A DNA stretch of 64,000 nt from Chitinophagaceae bacterium. Lineage in GTDB: Bacteria; Bacteroidota; Bacteroidia; Chitinophagales; Chitinophagaceae. The DNA lies in assembly GCA_004028795.1 (NCBI GenBank), contig SAIW01000016.1, forward strand, positions 1-64,000, given 5' to 3'. The position numbers were made by a program, and so were the translations under genes. This document shows positions 9,065 through 19,687 of the stretch, in pieces (positions within the stretch are counted from its first letter, which is position 1; each line of letters opens with the position of its first letter). The notes beneath the pieces were generated by a model. The model did no database searches. It worked only from the letters and a program-made list of their open reading frames with translations, and had not been told where the DNA came from.

Positions 9065-11866
9065 TTAATTACCGATTGTTTTTATTACCACATTTGGCCC
9101 GCCCGCAGTTTTGCCCGCTTTATTTAAGATATAGGTAAAGCTTAACAGGAAGTATTGCTGCAATACATTGTAGCGACTATCTTCAATATAGTTTTGATTG
9201 GATGAACGTGTAATACCTAAGTTTTTATTTAAAATATCATAAGCTGATAATTTAAATTCTGCTCTGCTGTTCTTTAAAAAACTTTTGGCAATACTGGCAT
9301 TCCAGATTGGAATACTTGTGTTATAACCATCTACTCTGCCGGTATTAATTACATAGTTTAACTTATTGTTCAATACTAATTTCCATGGCAGGTAATTCGT
9401 AACATCGGCTGTATACTGTTGTGTTACATATTGGGTATTTAATTGCGGTTGTAATGAATATGCTGAATTATTAAACCGAACATTAGCTATTGCTTGTACA
9501 TCAATTACATTATCAATACCATAACTGTAAGTAAATGTTGGTGTTATTGAACTGTTATCAATCGCATTCATAGCTCCGTTTAAATAAGCAATAGAATGTG
9601 TGTAGTTATAACCCATTGATACATCTATTCTCGATTTCAACTTAATAATCGGGAACCCATAACTCGCATTAATTAATCCGAACAAAACACCGTTAGCATT
9701 TACGGGCATAGATTTTCTAACCCCATTGGTAATATCATCTGCATTTACAATGGCATTTTGTGTAACATTAAATAATGCTAATGCAAAGAAATTTTTACGT
9801 GTAGCAGGGTCTGCAGCAAAATAATTAATAGTGAAATTGTTTACATAAGAGCGTTTTAAATCGGGGTTACCGGTTGTAATATTCAATGGGTCGCTCACAT
9901 TATCTACCGGTTGTAATTGTGTGGTTGAGGGTTGTAGTGTTGATGTACTGTAATCGAAACGAATGTTTTTATAATTACTGAATTTATATTGCAAATTGGA
10001 ATTCGGCAATACATCAGTAAAAGACTGATTGATGTTGTTACCTGTTGTTTGATTGATGCTTTGCAATTGAGCAGCCTGCAAAGAAGCTCCTACGGTATAA
10101 TTGATTTTCTTTTGATTGCTTCTGAAATTAATACTACCGCCGCTGTATAAATAATTGCTTTTGAAATTATTGGTTAATGCAGCATTAGCTATATCATGCT
10201 TGCCTGTTGATGAATTATAGTTATAGGTTTGTTTATTGCTTTCTCCTGTATTACTGTTTATAAACCCTGTAAACTCTACTAAAGAACGTTTGCCTACAGG
10301 TTCTGTATAAGTAATGTTGCCACCAACATTTCTTGTTACTGCATCTAAATTATTTGTTTGATTCAGTATTGAATCTTTAGCAGTACCTCCGCTGTAAAAA
10401 CTTGTTTTGGCATTAATAGAACCATTCTGCATACTATGGTTATAGGTTCCGTTGAAGTTGCCTGAAATAGTTCTTCCTTTTTTCTTAAAGCGTTGTCTGT
10501 ATAATGCAGTAGTACCCAGGTTATAGCCTTCTGAATGGGTATAGTTATTATTATAACCGTCATTCAACTTTATATTATTCAAATCAATTGAACTGAAAGT
10601 ATTGCTGCTGTAATTATTTTGCTGTTGCCAGCTTAACACGGGTGTAATTTTTAATGAACTGAAAGAATCTAATTTTTGATCGAATGCCATATTAACCCTT
10701 TGTTGATTAATATCAGTTACACTGTTTGTTGATGATGAATAAGTATAATTATTTCCCGGCAGTAAATATTGGCGTTTAGTATCTCTGTCTGTATTTAAAT
10801 GAATATCGCTTAGAGTTCCACTGGCATTCACATCCGTCTTTTTATTCCAGTTATCATTATAATTTACACCACCCGCATACGTTTCTGCAATGCCTTGTTG
10901 GTTTTGCCCCAAACCTGTAACAGGCAAACCTGCAGTAGCAGGGCCATCACTTGTTGTAATACGAATATTACCACCGCCGTTACGCATACCCTTTGATAAT
11001 TCTCCTGTAAAATTCAATACATCACCAATACTGAAACCTTGTTTATTGGTATTGTTTGCCATACCGATGAATGATAATTGCTGGTCGCCATTAAATTTGT
11101 TGATATTACTCTGAACTTCAAACCTATCATTTGTTCCTGCACCTGCGGTGGCTCTTCCGAACAAAGCATGATTTCTGTCTTTCTTTAATTTCAGGTTGAT
11201 TGCTTTTTGCGAATTGCCATCATCAACGCCTGTAAACTCGCTCTGGTCGCTCTTTTTATCGAATACCTGTACTTTATCAACTGCATCTGCATCTAAATTT
11301 TTGGTAGCCATTTTAGGGTCGCCGTTAAAAAAGTCTTTGCCGTTTACAAATACACGGTTTACTTTTTCACCATTCACTCTAACAGTTCCATCTGCATCAA
11401 TTGTTACACCGGGCAATTTCTTCAATAAATCTTCTACCACTGCATTGGGTTGTGTTTTAAAGTTTTCTGTATTGAATTCTAATGTATCATTATTCATTAC
11501 AACAGGTGGCCGTTTTGCATTAACGGTAACATTACCTGCCAGCTTTACATCAACCATGTTCACATTACCGATATTTATTTCATCTCCTGCAACTGCAATT
11601 TTTTTCCATACCGGCATAAAACCAACATAAGAAGTAGATAATAAATAAACACCCTGATTAACCTGTTTTAAAATAAACTTACCTGTTGAATCTGCTCTTG
11701 TAAAATTGATTAAGGTGGAATCTTTTTCATTTACCAAAGAAACAGTGGCATATGCCAATCCTTTTTTTGAAGCCGTATCATATACTACCCCTTTTATAAC
11801 AGCTTTCTGAGCAATAATTACTGAAGAGAAAATAAGCATTATCAATACTGAAAAAATATAACGCAT
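9065..11866 (-). CDS. TonB-dependent-receptor-like outer membrane beta-barrel protein
   Basis: 933 residues. Signal peptide (ends SSVIIAQ), a carboxypeptidase-regulatory/CnaB-like domain (~23-110; KGVVYDTASKKGLAYATVSL), a plug domain (~125-230; VVEDLLKKLPGVTIDADGTV and VFVNGKDFFNGDPKMA), then a long barrel of alternating aromatic strands of the OMP_b-brl_3 type. Such proteins sit in the outer membrane; some import ligands with TonB, and no substrate can be predicted here. The upstream region carries three TTAACC direct repeats and a TAnnTTTG box spaced like those before the GLPGLI gene at 18857. In other Bacteroidota, GLPGLI genes are often found next to barrels of this class, so a shared regulator and joint role are likely. 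Confidence 0.9.
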   Translation of the reverse strand: MRYIFSVLIMLIFSSVIIAQKAVIKGVVYDTASKKGLAYATVSLVNEKDSTLINFTRADSTGKFILKQVNQGVYLLSTSYVGFMPVWKKIAVAGDEINIGNVNMVDVKLAGNVTVNAKRPPVVMNNDTLEFNTENFKTQPNAVVEDLLKKLPGVTIDADGTVRVNGEKVNRVFVNGKDFFNGDPKMATKNLDADAVDKVQVFDKKSDQSEFTGVDDGNSQKAINLKLKKDRNHALFGRATAGAGTNDRFEVQSNINKFNGDQQLSFIGMANNTNKQGFSIGDVLNFTGELSKGMRNGGGNIRITTSDGPATAGLPVTGLGQNQQGIAETYAGGVNYNDNWNKKTDVNASGTLSDIHLNTDRDTKRQYLLPGNNYTYSSSTNSVTDINQQRVNMAFDQKLDSFSSLKITPVLSWQQQNNYSSNTFSSIDLNNIKLNDGYNNNYTHSEGYNLGTTALYRQRFKKKGRTISGNFNGTYNHSMQNGSINAKTSFYSGGTAKDSILNQTNNLDAVTRNVGGNITYTEPVGKRSLVEFTGFINSNTGESNKQTYNYNSSTGKHDIANAALTNNFKSNYLYSGGSINFRSNQKKINYTVGASLQAAQLQSINQTTGNNINQSFTDVLPNSNLQYKFSNYKNIRFDYSTSTLQPSTTQLQPVDNVSDPLNITTGNPDLKRSYVNNFTINYFAADPATRKNFFALALFNVTQNAIVNADDITNGVRKSMPVNANGVLFGLINASYGFPIIKLKSRIDVSMGYNYTHSIAYLNGAMNAIDNSSITPTFTYSYGIDNVIDVQAIANVRFNNSAYSLQPQLNTQYVTQQYTADVTNYLPWKLVLNNKLNYVINTGRVDGYNTSIPIWNASIAKSFLKNSRAEFKLSAYDILNKNLGITRSSNQNYIEDSRYNVLQQYFLLSFTYILNKAGKTAGGPNVVIKTIGN

Positions 11867-11885: not shown

Positions 11886-11893
11886 CAAAAGTA
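11886..11893 (-). promoter_or_regulatory. Candidate -7 box (TACTTTTG) of the beta-barrel gene
   Basis: Minus-strand TACTTTTG fits the Bacteroidota TAnnTTTG -7 consensus. It lies 19 bases before the ATG and 21 bases after the third TTAACC repeat. Confidence 0.55.
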
Positions 11894-11914: not shown

Positions 11915-11951
11915 GGTTAATGAAGCTATGTGAAAGGTTAATAAAGGTTAA
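11915..11951 (-). promoter_or_regulatory. Triple TTAACC direct-repeat operator upstream of the beta-barrel gene
   Basis: On the minus strand TTAACC occurs at 11951-11946, 11941-11936 and 11920-11915, giving start-to-start distances of 10 and 21 bp. The same arrangement, including the TTwA spacer and a TTTCA after the second repeat, is at 18779-18815. Direct repeats about one and two helical turns apart are typical of OmpR-family operators. Confidence 0.65.
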
Positions 11952-13394: not shown

Positions 13395-14264
13395 CTACCA
13401 ATTACTGAATCTTATTCCCACAGCGTAAGGTGTTTGTTTTAAGCCTGTACTTTCCTTATGTAAATCATTTAAACTATAGCTGCCATACAATCTTACAGGT
13501 CCTAACCCCAACTCACCTACCACAGCAAAACGCCAGGGCTGCAACATCATATCTCCATGATATTTCTGTTTACCGCGTTCTGCACTTATTTGTTTAGTGT
13601 GAGAACCCACAAGGTAACCGGCACTTACACCAAAGCTCATACTTAATGCTCGTTTTTTATTGGGGTAGGGATTGATATTAACCATAAACGGAACTGTAAG
13701 ATAGCCTGCGTATAATTTGTTTTTTGAAAAACCGATTGAATCATTAAAAACATAAGGTGTAGGAGAACTGCGGTAGCTGAGGCTTCTGTCGTATCTGAAA
13801 TTATACATTTCTAAGCCCAAGCCGTATTTAAGGTTTAATACATGGTTAGCCACATTCATTTTCTGCATAAAAAACCAGATGTTGGCATTAGATGATTTAC
13901 CACTGTTTAATGCCATACTGTTTTGATTAACCTGACCATCAGCAGGGCGACCTGTTTTTAAATAACCCATACCCTGTGCAGCGGTATAATTGGTGTTATC
14001 AACTAAGTTAGTAAACCCTAAATCGAAGATGAACCAGTTGGTGCTTATATTACCGGGTTTCTTTTTAATTGATTTATCCTTTCCCTTAAAATTAATATTG
14101 ATGTTAATCTTTTCATCATCGGTTAACTTACCGTCTTTATTCTTTTTAATAATTATAAAGTTGCCCACTTGAACAGTATCCGTTGGTTTTGCTGTTGTAT
14201 CAGTTTGTGCAAAGCTCAGTTGTACCAGCCCGCTTAAAGCAAGCAACATCATCAAATGTTTCAT
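13395..14264 (-). CDS. Outer membrane beta-barrel protein, third gene of the ECF sigma operon
   Basis: 289 residues. A signal peptide (ends VQLSFAQ) precedes a charged, Lys-rich stretch (~50-70), then a small barrel with alternating strands and a terminal aromatic (GIRFSNW) as expected for outer-membrane insertion. I cannot name a specific function; it resembles PorT-like barrels of the phylum. It lies 19 bases after the anti-sigma-like gene and shares the operon terminator at 13347-13372, so the sigma factor probably drives its expression. Confidence 0.75.
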   Translation of the reverse strand: MKHLMMLLALSGLVQLSFAQTDTTAKPTDTVQVGNFIIIKKNKDGKLTDDEKINININFKGKDKSIKKKPGNISTNWFIFDLGFTNLVDNTNYTAAQGMGYLKTGRPADGQVNQNSMALNSGKSSNANIWFFMQKMNVANHVLNLKYGLGLEMYNFRYDRSLSYRSSPTPYVFNDSIGFSKNKLYAGYLTVPFMVNINPYPNKKRALSMSFGVSAGYLVGSHTKQISAERGKQKYHGDMMLQPWRFAVVGELGLGPVRLYGSYSLNDLHKESTGLKQTPYAVGIRFSNW

Positions 14265-14283
14265 AAACTATAGATTTTAATTT

Positions 14284-15360
14284 TTACTTAGATTGTTTTA
14301 CAGGAATAGAAGCAATAGAGAGTTTAGCTTCTTCCTCATCTCTTGATTTGTTGAATAAACGGCCAACTTTTTTTAACAGGCCTTTTACTTTGTCTTTATT
14401 CAATTTCATATTACCAACATATACGGGATTGTTTTCTTCTTCATCGGTATTCAGTTCTTTATAAACAGCCTGTTGAACATAATTATTATTATCATTCTTT
14501 ACTGCTGCTGTTGTTACAATTGGTTTTTCAGAAAAATCGCTTTTAACTGCTATAGTTTCTTGTGGCGTTGTAACAATATCATTGTTTTTAATAGCCGGTC
14601 TGTTTTGTGCAACAGATGTATTATTATCCGGTATTATTATATTTTGTTGTTGGGTATTGTTTAATGGAACAGGGAGGTTATTAGATTTTTTAGGTTGAGT
14701 TGGTGCTGATTTTTCTGTTGTTGCAACAGTTTTATCTTCTTTATTTTCAGTTGTTGTTACAGCGGTATTAGTGGTTTTATCTTTTACTGATACTGCTTTA
14801 TCTGACGGAACAGTAGCAGGCTTTGTTACAGCAAATTCTCCACCATTAACAACTGCGGGCTTTTGATTGAATAAGGAATAACTCAGCACAATCAAACCCA
14901 ATACTGCAGCAGCTATTGATATACGTTGCCAACTTAAATAAACAACTCTTCTTTCTGCTTTTCTGTATAACGTTTCTTTGTAAGGATAAGGAATTGTTTC
15001 TGCCTCAAGCTTAGTTTGTTTTAATGCTGTAAAAGCTTGTTGTAATTGCGGATGTTGTAATACAAATGTTTCTACTGCTGTTTTTTCATTGTTATTCAAC
15101 TCATCATCTACATACAATAAAAACTTTTCTTCACTATTGGTTGCATTAATAAAAGCATCTTCATTTTTAAACAACAATTCTTTCCCTTCAAAATGAATAG
15201 CTGTTGAAGGCATTACAGTTTGTTGCAATGCTGTTAATTCAATAGCTAAATCAGGATTTTGCTGAATGAAAGCATCAACAGCAGCTTTCTGTTCTGCATT
15301 CAATTCATTGTCTGTGTACAATAAAAAGAATTCTTCGTAATTATTTCTGTTGATGTTCAT
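14284..15360 (-). CDS. Membrane anti-sigma-factor-like protein with duplicated N-terminal domain
   Basis: 358 residues, one base after the sigma factor gene. The cytoplasmic N-terminus holds two copies of one module: FFLLYTDNELNAEQKAAVDAF (~11-31) and KFLLYVDDELNNNEKTAVET (~79-98), each followed by QxP and an ALxQT segment. These resemble anti-sigma zinc-finger domains but lack the His/Cys ligands. One membrane segment (~147-164, AAAVLGLIVLSYSLF) is followed by a low-complexity Thr/Asn/Gln/Lys region and a basic C-terminus outside. It likely binds and holds the adjacent sigma factor at the membrane; the signal is unknown. Confidence 0.8.
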   Translation of the reverse strand: MNINRNNYEEFFLLYTDNELNAEQKAAVDAFIQQNPDLAIELTALQQTVMPSTAIHFEGKELLFKNEDAFINATNSEEKFLLYVDDELNNNEKTAVETFVLQHPQLQQAFTALKQTKLEAETIPYPYKETLYRKAERRVVYLSWQRISIAAAVLGLIVLSYSLFNQKPAVVNGGEFAVTKPATVPSDKAVSVKDKTTNTAVTTTENKEDKTVATTEKSAPTQPKKSNNLPVPLNNTQQQNIIIPDNNTSVAQNRPAIKNNDIVTTPQETIAVKSDFSEKPIVTTAAVKNDNNNYVQQAVYKELNTDEEENNPVYVGNMKLNKDKVKGLLKKVGRLFNKSRDEEEAKLSIASIPVKQSK

Positions 15361-15361
15361 G

Positions 15362-15847
15362 TTATAAAACGTTTTCAGGTTTAACCAAATAATCTCTCAA
15401 AATAATTCTTGCTCTATGCAGGTAAACTTTTACCTGACTATCACTTAAACCTGTAATTTTTCCTATTTCTTCATAATTATAACCTTCATAATCTTTCAGC
15501 ATTACCAAACTTCTTTGTGTTTCATTTAATTGATTCAGTGCATTCATCAACACTTTTTTAGTGTGCGAATGTTGCTGATAACCGATTTTTGTTTCTTCAT
15601 TAAAATCTTCTTTCAAAGAAATTCTTTTCACTTTACGCAAATGATCAATCATCTGGTTGTAAGCAATGGTGAAAAGATATGATTTTGCTTTTTCGTTTTC
15701 TACGTTTTCTCTGTTACGCCATAATTTTTCGAATGCAGTCTGCACTACATCTCTCGCATCTTCTTCGTGCTTAAGATTTTTTACAATAAACCTGAACACA
15801 TTGTCGGCATAAAGGTTTACACATTCGTTGTATTGTTTTTCCGTCAT
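15362..15847 (-). CDS. ECF-type RNA polymerase sigma factor
   Basis: 161 residues, the size of an extracytoplasmic-function sigma factor. Region 2 lies at ~8-75 (VNLYADNVFRFIVKNL, DVVQTAFEKLW, YLFTIAYNQMIDHLRK). Region 4 at ~105-155 contains YEEIGKITGLSDSQVKVYLH. It is the first gene of a three-gene minus-strand operon with an anti-sigma-like protein and an outer membrane protein, so it probably controls its own operon. The target promoter is not evident from the sequence. Confidence 0.93.
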   Translation of the reverse strand: MTEKQYNECVNLYADNVFRFIVKNLKHEEDARDVVQTAFEKLWRNRENVENEKAKSYLFTIAYNQMIDHLRKVKRISLKEDFNEETKIGYQQHSHTKKVLMNALNQLNETQRSLVMLKDYEGYNYEEIGKITGLSDSQVKVYLHRARIILRDYLVKPENVL

Positions 15848-16326: not shown

Positions 16327-17013
16327 TCATGAAACCACAAATCTATATCCTACACCTTTAATGGTTAATATTTCCAAAGCTGTGTCTTCTTTTAAATAGC
16401 CCCGTAGCTTGGTAATATACACATCTAAATTGCGGCTGTTAAAAAAAGAATCGTTGCCCCAAATGTGGTTTAATAAATCTTTTCTTTCAATAATTGAGTT
16501 TTTGTTTTGAAAAAGAAACTTAAGCAACTCACTTTCTCTGAAGGATAATTTCTTTTCTTCGTTACCAATACTTAGCACCTGTTTATTTAAATGAAACTGA
16601 TACTTACCTAATTGAATAAACTCACTGGTATTTATAAAAGGGTTTTCTTTTTTAACACGCAATAAATTTTCTATACGAACGATTAACTCTTCCATACTGA
16701 AAGGCTTTCTTATATAATCGTTAGCACCCAATTTAAAGCCTTTTACTACATCGTCTGTTTGTGTTTTAGCTGTAAGAAAAATAATAGGTACATCATCATT
16801 TAATTTTCTTATAGCTTCTGCTAATTCAAAACCATTTCTGTTAGGCAACATAATATCTAACACACAAATATCCGGTTCGGTTTCCTGAAAAACAGGAATT
16901 ACTTTATCGCCGTCAGCTTCCATAGTTACATCAAAGCCACGCCCTTCAAGGGTTTCTTTAACTATCTTCCCTAAAAACAATTCATCTTCTACATATAAAA
17001 TTTTAATACTCAT
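16327..17013 (-). CDS. OmpR-family response regulator
   Basis: 228 residues. The receiver domain has the acidic pocket YVEDE (8-11) and phospho-acceptor D53 in CVLDIMLP, with the switch residues in FLTAKT and K105-like RKPFSMEE. The C-terminal winged helix (~135-228) contains RESELLKFLF and RNLDVYITKLRGYL, then GVGYRFV. The gene follows the kinase with a 4-base overlap (ATGA), so the two are translationally coupled. The nearest candidate operator is the TTAACC triple repeat at 18779-18815 between the kinase gene and the divergent GLPGLI gene; a matching operator precedes the barrel gene at 9065-11866. Confidence 0.95.
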   Translation of the reverse strand: MSIKILYVEDELFLGKIVKETLEGRGFDVTMEADGDKVIPVFQETEPDICVLDIMLPNRNGFELAEAIRKLNDDVPIIFLTAKTQTDDVVKGFKLGANDYIRKPFSMEELIVRIENLLRVKKENPFINTSEFIQLGKYQFHLNKQVLSIGNEEKKLSFRESELLKFLFQNKNSIIERKDLLNHIWGNDSFFNSRNLDVYITKLRGYLKEDTALEILTIKGVGYRFVVS

Positions 17014-18734
17014 GCTATAGGAAGTTGAATAATAAATGTGCTGCCATTACCTTTGGTACTTTCAACTGTTATGCTGCCATTATGTTTTTTTATAATTTCT
17101 GCTACATAACTTAAACCCAACCCGTAACCTTTTACATTATGATGACCGCCCGTTGGCACACGGAAAAATTTATCGAATATTTTATGCTGATATTCTGGTG
17201 CAATACCAATACCATTATCTTTTACAGCTATAATTAATTTGTCATCTGCTCTTTTTAAACTCAGTTGCACTTCAGCATTTTGTCCGCTGTATTTTAAAGC
17301 ATTATCTAACAGATTAAACAATACACTTGTAATATGCAACCTGTCTGCTTTTGCTAAGAAATAATTTCCTTCTGTTCCTAACTTAAGCGAAGCATGTTGA
17401 TTCATTGCCTGCAACTGCATACTGCTGATAACTTCTTCTGCTAATTGTTTAATATCAACAGATTCAATATTTAATTCTATGGCTTTGCTTTCAAACATAG
17501 AAAGCTTTAAAACTTTATCAACCAATAAACTCAATCGTTGCAATTCTGAAGATGATATGTTTAAATACTCTTTTGTTTTTTCAGGGTTTTGAATGGCATC
17601 AAAATTTTTCAATGCTTCAATAGCTACATTAACTGTTGCAATAGGCGTTTTTAATTCATGGGTTATATTACTGATGAATTCATCTTTTATTAATGCTAAC
17701 TTTTGTTGTGCAGCAAGGTTTCTGTATAAATAAATGAATGATAAAGTGGTAAGAATAATTAATAAGAGTGATACCGTTATCGGCATAGAAATTTTCTGTA
17801 CAATAAACCAAAACGGATTAGTGAAAGATGCTTTGTACGCATAAGGGCTATCAAAGCCTATTTCGGCATAACCTGTAGAAAGTTTTTTTGAAGTAGTATC
17901 AATTTTTACATCTTTCTGTTCATACATTTTTATAGTGTAAGTCAATTTTATTTTACTCTCAGCCAGCTTTATCTTATAAACACTATCTACTTTTTTAATC
18001 GGAATAGAATCGTACAAAGACCTCACTTTAAGAACTAAATTTTTTAATTGTTCAGAAGCGTTCATTCCTTTAGCATCAAAAGTTGCACGTATAAAATTTT
18101 TATTTTTAGTATTATTTAAAATAACAGTTGTATCGAGTGTGGTTTTATTTTTTTGCTGATTTAATTTTGAAGTAAACGCTGCTAAGTCCGGAGGTAATTT
18201 TCCTGAATCGTTGGTGCTTATTACTATTTTTACATTACCGCTTTTGCCCGCCAACTTAGCAATGCTATCAATCTTACCTTCACTGTTTATTATTGACAAT
18301 GGTACCCGGCGAACTATAAAATGAGAATCATTAATGATTTGATTTTCTGTTGAAACATGTGCTGCATCTGCTTTTACTTTAAACCCCTTTTTAAAAAAAG
18401 TTTTACCAAGCTGTTTATCATTTATTATTTTAATAGTGTCTGTTGAAAATTTATCAATAACAATTGCAGGAGGTATAGTTGGCGTTTTTCCTTCGGCAAT
18501 ATTGGCTTCCCGGAATTTATCAGGCATTGGAATCTTCATGTGATTAGAATCAAAATCAAATCTGAAGTTCTTATTTTGTAATTGCTGTACAGCATTTCTC
18601 AACAACACATCCGTTTCTTTTTTCAAGCCATTCCATTCCTCATTATATAATTTATTAAGCCAATAAGTTTGAAAGGCTGCTATAAAAACAATAGCCGCTA
18701 TCATTAAAAGCTTAGAGAAAAATAACTTATTCAT
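17010..18734 (-). CDS. Sensor histidine kinase
   Basis: About 574 residues from the ATG at 18734; a further ATG at 18779 would add 15 residues that lack signal features and run through the presumed promoter. An N-terminal membrane segment (LLMIAAIVFIAAF) and a second at ~315-335 enclose a periplasmic domain of ~270 residues of unknown fold. The cytoplasmic part has the H-box ITHELKTPIAT (His ~358), N-box FNLLDNALKYS, G1 DNGIGIAP and G2 GYGLGLSYV. It probably autophosphorylates and passes phosphate to the coupled regulator downstream. The stimulus is unknown; the large periplasmic domain suggests envelope sensing. Confidence 0.94.
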   Translation of the reverse strand: MNKLFFSKLLMIAAIVFIAAFQTYWLNKLYNEEWNGLKKETDVLLRNAVQQLQNKNFRFDFDSNHMKIPMPDKFREANIAEGKTPTIPPAIVIDKFSTDTIKIINDKQLGKTFFKKGFKVKADAAHVSTENQIINDSHFIVRRVPLSIINSEGKIDSIAKLAGKSGNVKIVISTNDSGKLPPDLAAFTSKLNQQKNKTTLDTTVILNNTKNKNFIRATFDAKGMNASEQLKNLVLKVRSLYDSIPIKKVDSVYKIKLAESKIKLTYTIKMYEQKDVKIDTTSKKLSTGYAEIGFDSPYAYKASFTNPFWFIVQKISMPITVSLLLIILTTLSFIYLYRNLAAQQKLALIKDEFISNITHELKTPIATVNVAIEALKNFDAIQNPEKTKEYLNISSSELQRLSLLVDKVLKLSMFESKAIELNIESVDIKQLAEEVISSMQLQAMNQHASLKLGTEGNYFLAKADRLHITSVLFNLLDNALKYSGQNAEVQLSLKRADDKLIIAVKDNGIGIAPEYQHKIFDKFFRVPTGGHHNVKGYGLGLSYVAEIIKKHNGSITVESTKGNGSTFIIQLPIA

Positions 18735-18741
18735 TACACAA

Positions 18742-18749
18742 CAAAAATA
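18742..18749 (-). promoter_or_regulatory. Candidate -7 box (TATTTTTG) for the kinase/regulator pair
   Basis: Minus-strand TATTTTTG matches TAnnTTTG. It lies only 7 bases before the chosen ATG, so the transcript would be nearly leaderless. It is inside the frame if the upstream ATG at 18779 were used. Confidence 0.35.
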
Positions 18750-18778: not shown

Positions 18779-18815
18779 TTAACCTTAATTAACCTTTCAG
18801 CAACCCTGCTTAACC
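18779..18815 (+). promoter_or_regulatory. Triple TTAACC direct-repeat operator upstream of the GLPGLI gene
   Basis: TTAACC at 18779-18784, 18789-18794 and 18810-18815: start-to-start distances 10 and 21 bp, identical to the set at 11915-11951. The third repeat covers the -33 region of the promoter at 18827. It lies in the divergent gap between the kinase and GLPGLI genes, so it could serve both. Confidence 0.68.
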
Positions 18816-18826
18816 TGCCCGAACAA

Positions 18827-18834
18827 TAGTTTTG
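18827..18834 (+). promoter_or_regulatory. Candidate -7 box (TAGTTTTG) of the GLPGLI gene
   Basis: Matches TAnnTTTG, 11 bases after the third TTAACC repeat and 22 bases before the ATG at 18857. No clear -33 TTTG is present, which fits activator dependence. Confidence 0.55.
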
Positions 18835-18856: not shown

Positions 18857-19687
18857 ATGAAAAAAGTTTTTCTCTTAATGAATGCAGCCCTGTTATTTAC
18901 CGTTGCCCATGCACAGCTAAAAGAAGGCACTATTGTGTATGAAAGAAAAATAAATATGCACCGCAATATTCAGGATGAACAAATGAAAGCAATGATACCT
19001 GAATTTAATACTGATAAATTTATACTGCTTTTCAGTGATAGTGTTTCAGTTTACAAATTACAACCGAAAGATGAAATGCCCGACCCTTTTGATAACGGTG
19101 GAGGCGGAAGAGTTGTTATAAGAATTAATGGAGCAGATGGTGGTGAAACATTCAGAAATTATACAGCATACAGAGCAGTTTCATCTCAGGAATTGGGTGC
19201 TAAAAATTATATAATTGAAGACAGTATTCGCCCGTTGAAATGGAAATTGACTGATGAAACAAAAAAAATTATGGGTCATACCTGCCATAAAGCAACAGCT
19301 AAACAAATTGTAATGACGGGCGGCGGAATGAGAATTATGACAAATACTAACGGCAACACAACAGTTGACAGCAGCAAAGCAGGCAATGGTATGCAGAAAA
19401 AAGAAGTTGAGGTAATTGCCTGGTATGCAGATGATATTACTGTACCCGCAGGGCCAAGTGCTTATTGCAGTTTACCGGGTGCTATTTTAGAAATAAATGT
19501 AGATAACGGAGCAACTATTTTTACAGCAGCAGAAATAAAAAATGAAGTGAATAAAAAAGAATTAAAAGAGCCTACCAAAGGCAAAAAAGTTACGCCAGAT
19601 GAATTCAGAAAAATGCAAATGGAATTAATGCAAAACAATATGCAACAAATGGGTGGCGGAATGAGAACATTCAGAATGGGAAGTTAG
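18857..19687 (+). CDS. GLPGLI family protein
   Basis: 276 residues. A signal peptide (ends TVAHAQ) is followed by the family opening EGTIVYERKINMHRN. The middle has KLTDETKKIMGHTCHKATA (~131-149), where GLPGLI proteins carry a conserved Cys, then WYADDITVPAGPSAYCSLPG (~197-216), the site of the name-giving GLPGLI-like motif (here SLPGAI). The C-terminus is Met/Gln/Gly-rich. The function of this periplasmic or cell-surface family is unknown. It is divergent from a kinase/regulator pair and shares its operator type with the barrel gene at 9065. Confidence 0.9.
   Translation: MKKVFLLMNAALLFTVAHAQLKEGTIVYERKINMHRNIQDEQMKAMIPEFNTDKFILLFSDSVSVYKLQPKDEMPDPFDNGGGGRVVIRINGADGGETFRNYTAYRAVSSQELGAKNYIIEDSIRPLKWKLTDETKKIMGHTCHKATAKQIVMTGGGMRIMTNTNGNTTVDSSKAGNGMQKKEVEVIAWYADDITVPAGPSAYCSLPGAILEINVDNGATIFTAAEIKNEVNKKELKEPTKGKKVTPDEFRKMQMELMQNNMQQMGGGMRTFRMGS

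Follow-up and report, generated by a model that had tools for sequence, protein, structure and literature searches.

Operators of the OmpR/PhoB family, among them the pho box and the OmpR boxes, are built of head-to-tail half-sites 10–11 bp apart, which are bound by winged-helix response regulators (RRs) and lie by or over the −35/−33 region. The main sigma factor of the Bacteroidota uses promoters with the sequence TAnnTTTG.

Two published two-component systems are close to the locus described here. The PhoPR system of Riemerella anatipestifer comprises an OmpR-type regulator and a kinase (PMC9603813, PMC5399024). In the sections of PMC9603813 available to us, PhoP is reported to bind upstream of its own operon, of GLPGLI genes and of an outer-membrane barrel gene, with 583 peaks and a broad regulon, and the most conserved bases of the motif obtained by DAP-seq are given as TTTAACA. 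In the HaeSR system of Porphyromonas gingivalis (PG0719-PG0720), the regulator binds its own promoter and the promoters of outer-membrane uptake genes (available parts of PMC3764172 and PMC8757827). PG0720 seems to affect two GLPGLI genes as well: PG1492 and PG1908 carry negative values in a table for which the column heading lay outside the part of PMC8757827 at hand. The order of the genes in HaeSR is regulator and then kinase, whereas in the locus described here it is kinase and then regulator.

Here we describe a 37-bp element that is, with high probability, the operator of an adjacent OmpR-type RR; it would lie between two divergent promoters and have an OMP_b-brl_3 gene as a second target. 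A literature search, with most subscription papers outside its coverage, returned no description that we recognised of this operator, and the regulon that it marks is apparently undescribed and widely conserved.

Genes and Putative Operators of the Window

The window is the whole stretch of DNA that was analysed, 64,000 nucleotides of a Chitinophagaceae genome (assembly GCA_004028795.1, contig SAIW01000016.1, positions 1 to 64,000 of the forward strand). Its relevant features are as follows.

18857–19687, plus strand: GLPGLI gene (TIGR01200, PF09697 Porph_ging)
17010–18734, minus strand: histidine kinase (HK) gene (HisKA, HATPase_c), N-terminal region without a family
16327–17013, minus strand: OmpR/PhoB-family RR gene (Response_reg and Trans_reg_C)
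9065–11866, minus strand: outer-membrane β-barrel gene (PF14905 OMP_b-brl_3 and CarboxypepD_reg)
18779–18815, plus strand: putative operator 1, GLPGLI/HK-RR divergent promoter, 37 bp, four half-sites with 10-11-10 spacing
18779–18784, plus strand: operator 1 half-site H1, TTAACC, exact match
18789–18794, plus strand: operator 1 half-site H2, TTAACC, exact match
18800–18804, plus strand: operator 1 half-site H3, GCAAC, degenerate, from the column table of 108 related sites
18810–18815, plus strand: operator 1 half-site H4, TTAACC, promoter-proximal, exact match
18827–18834, plus strand: TAGTTTTG, predicted −7 box of the GLPGLI promoter, 11 bp past H4
18742–18749, minus strand: TATTTTTG, probable −7 box of the HK-RR promoter, 29 bp from H1
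11915–11951, minus strand: putative operator 2, OMP_b-brl_3 promoter, with H1 at 11951–11946, H2 at 11941–11936, H3 at 11930–11926 (CATAG) and H4 at 11920–11915
11886–11893, minus strand: TACTTTTG, predicted −7 box of the OMP promoter, 21 bp past H4

The sequence-only reading of this DNA had located TTAACC at 18779, 18789 and 18810 (starts 10 and 21 bp apart) with TAGTTTTG 11 bases farther on, and these positions are exact; its placement of the repeats between a kinase/OmpR-regulator pair and a divergent GLPGLI gene is likewise correct (HK and RR genes on the minus strand, GLPGLI on the plus strand). It had counted three repeats. The three exact TTAACC are present, but the operator has four half-sites, and the degenerate GCAAC at 18800–18804 had been overlooked. 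The second copy of the operator, the kinase-side promoter box and the second target, OMP_b-brl_3, go beyond that reading, as does the fourth half-site. Only 7 bp separate the end of the TATTTTTG box from the probable HK start codon (ATG, 18734), so the transcript would be very short or leaderless. An alternative, longer HK start at 18779, taken from the open reading frame listing, would extend the gene into operator 1.

TTAACC alone occurs in the window at chance frequency (57 copies, as compared with 51.3 ± 6.7 in shuffled sequences). The spaced triple of TTAACC is expected to match 0.13 times in the window even with up to three mismatches, and from base composition 0.00028 exact copies are expected in the 3.43-Mb genome. 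Two exact copies were found in the genome, both within the window, at 18779–18815 (plus strand) and 11951–11915 (minus strand), and each stands ahead of one member of the gene pair GLPGLI/OMP_b-brl_3, the second of which lies 7 kb from operator 1. These copies are the only places in the window where three TTAACC occur on one strand within 100 bp. Two further genome matches with three mismatches are counted as chance because, under the same tolerance, a reversed control pattern is matched 8 times.

The region between the two operators (13395–15847, minus strand) contains a gene for an ECF-type sigma factor (15362–15847), a gene for a 358-residue protein of no clear family (14284–15360) and a gene for a protein with a sub-threshold match to OMP_b-brl_2 (13395–14264).

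Proteins Encoded at the Locus

Both domains of the RR, the receiver (PF00072) and the Trans_reg_C winged helix (PF00486), score above the cut-off. Residue Asp53, which we take from the family to be the phospho-acceptor aspartate, is invariant across 65 aligned sequences. The best-scoring named family for the RR is RprY (NCBIfam NF051850), at 244.5 bits against a curated cut-off of 370. The structure model of the kinase has a mean pLDDT of 71.6, and nothing was drawn from it about the signal because its N-terminal region is mostly below 50.

The GLPGLI protein of the window scores 140.8 bits against TIGR01200 (cut-off 50), and all 47 aligned GLPGLI proteins, including this one, match TIGR01200 at E ≤ 0.001; PF14905 matches all five barrel proteins scanned. 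PF09697 is listed as a family of unknown function, and the literature search returned no function for GLPGLI proteins or for this kinase/regulator pair. The model of the GLPGLI protein (mean pLDDT 86) was compared with known structures by Foldseek. It matches the N-terminal domain of PNGase F-II (E 1.6e-8), and there are matches to ependymin (E 8e-4) and, more weakly, to LolA-type half-barrels (LolA, E 6e-3 and 0.018). A role as a carrier of hydrophobic cargo is only a lead because the query-normalised TM-scores of these matches are all ≤ 0.5.

Conservation of the Putative Operator in Related Loci

Orthologous loci carry the repeats, the absence of which from such loci the sequence-only reading had named as evidence against itself. 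The triple with at most one mismatch is present in 135 of 394 genomes of the family, as compared with 15 of the 394 for any match to the reversed control pattern (counted from the table). A scan of public genomes with the pattern TTAACCTTNATTAACMTT-N13-TTAACC returned at least 117 loci. The 80 of these for which a taxon was named all appear to be Bacteroidota and include Saprospiraceae, Cyclobacteriaceae, Chitinophagaceae, Bacteroidales, Runella, Emticicia, Belliella and others. Among the loci listed, there are 119 sites outside the window. A GLPGLI gene follows 78 of them and an OMP_b-brl_3 gene follows 33; most of the remaining 8 are too close to the end of a contig or locus for the gene to be seen. 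A kinase gene is divergent from 69 of these 78 GLPGLI sites, and at the other nine the upstream DNA is shorter than 1.5 kb; where at least 1.5 kb is present, the kinase is divergent in 63 of 63.

The third half-site, operator positions 22–26, has the consensus TCAAG in 108 related sites, with A25 conserved at 87% and the other positions at 50–60%. H2 and H4 were fixed by the search pattern, and positions 22–26 lie outside it. In five loci of a sister clade of regulators (two of which, L297 and L298, had been chosen by motif), a full TTAAC stands one base before the H3 position, in the arrangement 0, 10, 20, 31. The conservation of A25 and its neighbours outside the search pattern, together with the sister-clade TTAAC one base earlier, led us to prefer four half-sites and to reject an operator of only three. 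With its 10-11-10 spacing, the element therefore would have room for two tandem dimers and does not resemble three independent boxes.

Association of the Putative Operator with the Regulator

Orthologues of the RR were identified with a profile of 65 sequences at E ≤ 1e-75 in the 394 family genomes, 174 of which have one. Motif and regulator occur together in 117 genomes, the regulator alone in 57, the motif alone in 18 and neither in 202. The odds ratio is 23, and the Fisher p of 2e-36 overstates the evidence because related loci share ancestry and are not independent. Three genomes of the same genus have neither the motif nor an RR match at E ≤ 1e-75, and their best kinase matches span the catalytic part only.

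We looked at loci selected without the motif. In 19 of 20 loci from the 57 family genomes that have the RR and lack the strict motif, at least two tandem TTAAC are present in the divergent promoter, with three half-sites in the array in only 8 of the 19; the 20th locus is cut by its contig. Of 37 loci found across the phylum by protein search with the RR alone, 33 carry two or more TTAAC in tandem in the divergent promoter, and the other four have fewer than two on the divergent strand. The corresponding rates in Markov-shuffled controls are 1.2% (family loci) and 1.9% (phylum loci). In 10 of the 37 phylum loci the array can be read on the opposite strand too; all 10 are built of GTTAAC, and their orientation is undefined because this sequence is self-complementary. 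None of six paralogous OmpR-type regulators of the same genome has a TTAAC array in the 2.7 kb upstream. The proposal that the repeats form the operator of the adjacent RR, made in the sequence-only reading, is thus strongly supported, as far as comparison of genomes can do so, by the divergent kinase, the co-occurrence with the RR, the RR-first search and the paralogue control.

Of the motif-only genomes, G038, G112, G167, G170, G065, G173 and G342 were looked into. The first four have a partial RR match, which lies at a contig end in G112 and G170 and on the same contig as the motif in G167 and G170. The motif in G065 looks like chance, with no partner gene and no box. In G173 (locus L336) the operator precedes a shortened barrel gene, and in G342 (L340) there is no barrel gene behind it; no RR orthologue was found at E ≤ 1e-75 in either genome.

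Promoter Geometry

In the loci listed together with the window there are 121 sites, and a box of the form TAnnTT[TC][GA] follows the operator at 21 bp in 110 of them, at 10 or 11 bp in 7 and at 20 bp in 1; no such box was found downstream in the remaining 3. On the kinase side, 69 of the 78 GLPGLI sites with readable DNA there have TAnnTTTG at 27–29 bp from H1, and none of the 34 OMP sites of the listed loci and the window does. Neither box formed part of the pattern used to find the loci. The OMP sites serve as an internal control for this box because 33 of the 34 are without a divergent kinase. No clearly conserved −33 element is seen on either side (108 sites downstream), and downstream there is weak enrichment of T (~50%) at a few places.

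In the window, the spacer between H4 and the box is 11 bp at the GLPGLI promoter and 21 bp at the OMP promoter. At both promoters the promoter-proximal half-site would lie on the polymerase face, next to or over −33 (transcription starts are predicted). The sequence-only reading had placed the third repeat over the −33 region, as for an activator. This position holds for the GLPGLI promoter of the window, but it is a variant of the window's lineage, and the usual site is one helical turn upstream. The GLPGLI box is also at 10 or 11 bp in two groups of loci: (i) L041, L150, L217, L229 and L230, the regulators of which cluster with that of the window in the tree, and (ii) L077, L082, L224, L225 and L226, in which the barrel proteins are 54–60% identical to that of the window. 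In these ten loci the OMP box is at 21 bp where it is readable. The shorter spacer is found in L104, L116, L122, L131 and L146 as well. The predicted GLPGLI promoter of the window's lineage thus sits one helical turn closer to the operator (11 versus 21 bp).

Arrangement of Putative Targets and Relationships of the Regulator

The position of the operator varies with the arrangement of the two target genes. The following counts were made with a relaxed score and without de-duplication of the loci. In 45 loci the OMP gene follows GLPGLI on the same strand within 400 bp; it has an operator of its own in none of them, and 43 of the 45 GLPGLI genes have one. An OMP gene on the opposite strand has its own operator in all 19 loci that include its start; in 10 others the start is cut off. 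In six loci with the two genes on the same strand and farther apart, the site is at GLPGLI in three and at the barrel gene in three, and the barrel gene comes first in the latter.

Eight genomes of genus g29 keep the HK-RR pair and have no GLPGLI or OMP match in the 6.5–8 kb fetched. In all eight H1-H2 is kept and H4 is gone. Loss of the whole operator in this genus had been considered and was dropped, since the tandem count shows that H1-H2 is kept. A division in which H1-H2 would be the autoregulatory part and H3-H4 the target-promoter part fits these loci.

In a tree of 82 regulator sequences, built by a quick method and with long paralogue branches, the window's regulator is placed among 40 sequences that form one clade (SH-aLRT 99) inside a larger clade of 58 (SH-aLRT 96). 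The [0, 10, 31] layout is found in 33 of the 40, many of which had been chosen by motif. The larger clade includes eleven regulators of families f5 and f8 that have three TTAAC at 0, 10 and 20. GLPGLI and barrel matches are present in all eleven of these loci (8 kb fetched). In five of them at most 260 bp separate the array from the GLPGLI gene downstream, and in six the array is not directly upstream. A deep locus of the main clade has a TTAAC array before the gene for an AhpC/TSA protein. The sister clade contains the RprY-like paralogue from the genome itself, along with regulators of another class, and many TTAAC(A) arrays precede other genes there, for example that of a Por_Secre_tail protein. 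Five sister-clade loci, L291, L292, L297, L298 and L322, have four full TTAAC and no GLPGLI match in 8.5–9 kb. In L293, from a genome of another class, a segment of about 740 bp with the operator, the kinase start and the start of the divergent gene appears to be duplicated in tandem (1635 and 2374), and the kinase promoter of L325 (G484) has five TTAAC at 0, 10, 30, 40 and 50.

The recognition helix has the sequence SRNLDVY in the window's clade and mostly ARSMDVY/F or GRSMDVY/F elsewhere. That this change may go with TTAACC as opposed to TTAACA is only an idea because there are exceptions (TTAACG, TTAACT) and the search pattern introduces bias.

Proposed Mechanism and Alternatives

We infer the following mechanism. 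The kinase would phosphorylate the RR, and dimers of the phosphorylated protein would fill H1-H2 and H3-H4 in a head-to-tail arrangement. The dimer nearest the promoter would lie on the same face of the DNA as RNA polymerase and would recruit it at promoters that have a −7 box and no clearly conserved −33 element; transcription of the HK-RR pair would be adjusted, up or down, by the same operator on its other side. That GLPGLI would be activated in preference to being repressed is suggested by the helical phase and by the fact that no −33 element is clearly conserved. In this way a sensor would very probably be linked to one family of envelope genes through a design that is conserved across many Bacteroidota.

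The operator could be one for the RR and the bound protein could still repress GLPGLI and OMP_b-brl_3, or act in a mixed way with the 10-bp shift reversing the sign. H4 covers the −33 region at the GLPGLI promoter, where a bound protein could block polymerase, and among PhoP-bound GLPGLI genes in R. anatipestifer three are down and two are up in a phoP mutant (PMC9603813, in the part available). Against repression, the phase of the box is kept (10, 11, 20 or 21 bp) in 118 of the 121 sites in the listed loci and the window, and promoters without a clear −33 element are what would be expected if they depend on an activator. We therefore regard repression or mixed action as unlikely, and activation as the preferred outcome.

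A different transcription factor, such as an RprY-like paralogue, might be the main reader of the site, with the adjacent RR merely sharing it. The sister clade, which includes the genome's own paralogue G000:C22:16079, has a similar recognition helix, and in other families its kinase promoters carry TTAAC arrays; because of these arrays, cross-talk between regulators within one genome is possible. Yet G000:C22:16079 itself has no array in the 2.7 kb upstream, and within the family the motif tracks the orthologue of the adjacent RR down to its absence from the three same-genus genomes without the RR; a different main reader is accordingly improbable. It is scarcely credible that the repeats are due to chance or are a functionless AT-rich feature. 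A single TTAACC is no more frequent than chance predicts, but the exact triple, expected some 0.0003 times per genome, is found twice before partner genes, and other families keep it at set distances from the promoter boxes on either side. Recognition by the adjacent RR thus remains the preferred reading.

A wider reading, which we consider conceivable but somewhat short of an even chance, is that the locus represents an old module of the Bacteroidota. In it, an RprY-like branch of regulators would read a code of helically repeated TTAAC, and the core duty would be to co-express GLPGLI, as a LolA-like periplasmic carrier, with OMP_b-brl_3. Whenever the barrel gene left the operon, the operator would go with it; loss of the targets would bring the loss of half of the operator, and the shift of the promoter by one turn would separate two modes of activation from the same operator in one cell.

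An operator with two defined targets makes both the GLPGLI protein and the kinase/regulator pair testable. It is also a readable motif with which the regulon can be called in many genomes, and the natural promoter pairs with 11- and 21-bp spacers are suited to the study of activation in Bacteroidota.

Comparison with Known Systems

Apart from this RR, the genome encodes one at 43% identity that the tree places in the sister clade. For HaeSR, TTAAC does not occur in the main text of PMC8757827 or in the portion of the text of PMC3764172 examined. To place R. anatipestifer PhoP, short peptides derived from the qPCR primers in the available part of PMC5399024 were used together with a scan of kinase G-boxes, which gave no match in the relevant group. 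PhoPR is the nearest published case and resembles the system proposed for the window in binding at its own operon and in having GLPGLI and outer-membrane targets, although the available sections of the PhoP report give neither a spaced-repeat architecture nor a promoter geometry such as those of the window operator. The half-sites of the window are TTAACC, TTAACA and TTTAACA are present in related loci of other families, and the PhoP motif is known to us from the wording of a figure legend.

Very probably the element is a tandem operator of the OmpR/PhoB type and thus of a known kind, as its direct half-sites, 10–11 bp apart within the target promoter, indicate. It differs from the described operators of this type in its TTAAC code and in its four half-sites with a degenerate third. 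Unlike them, it is combined with a −7 box of the form TAnnTTTG that lacks a clear −33 element, and one operator is held in fixed geometry to two divergent promoters.
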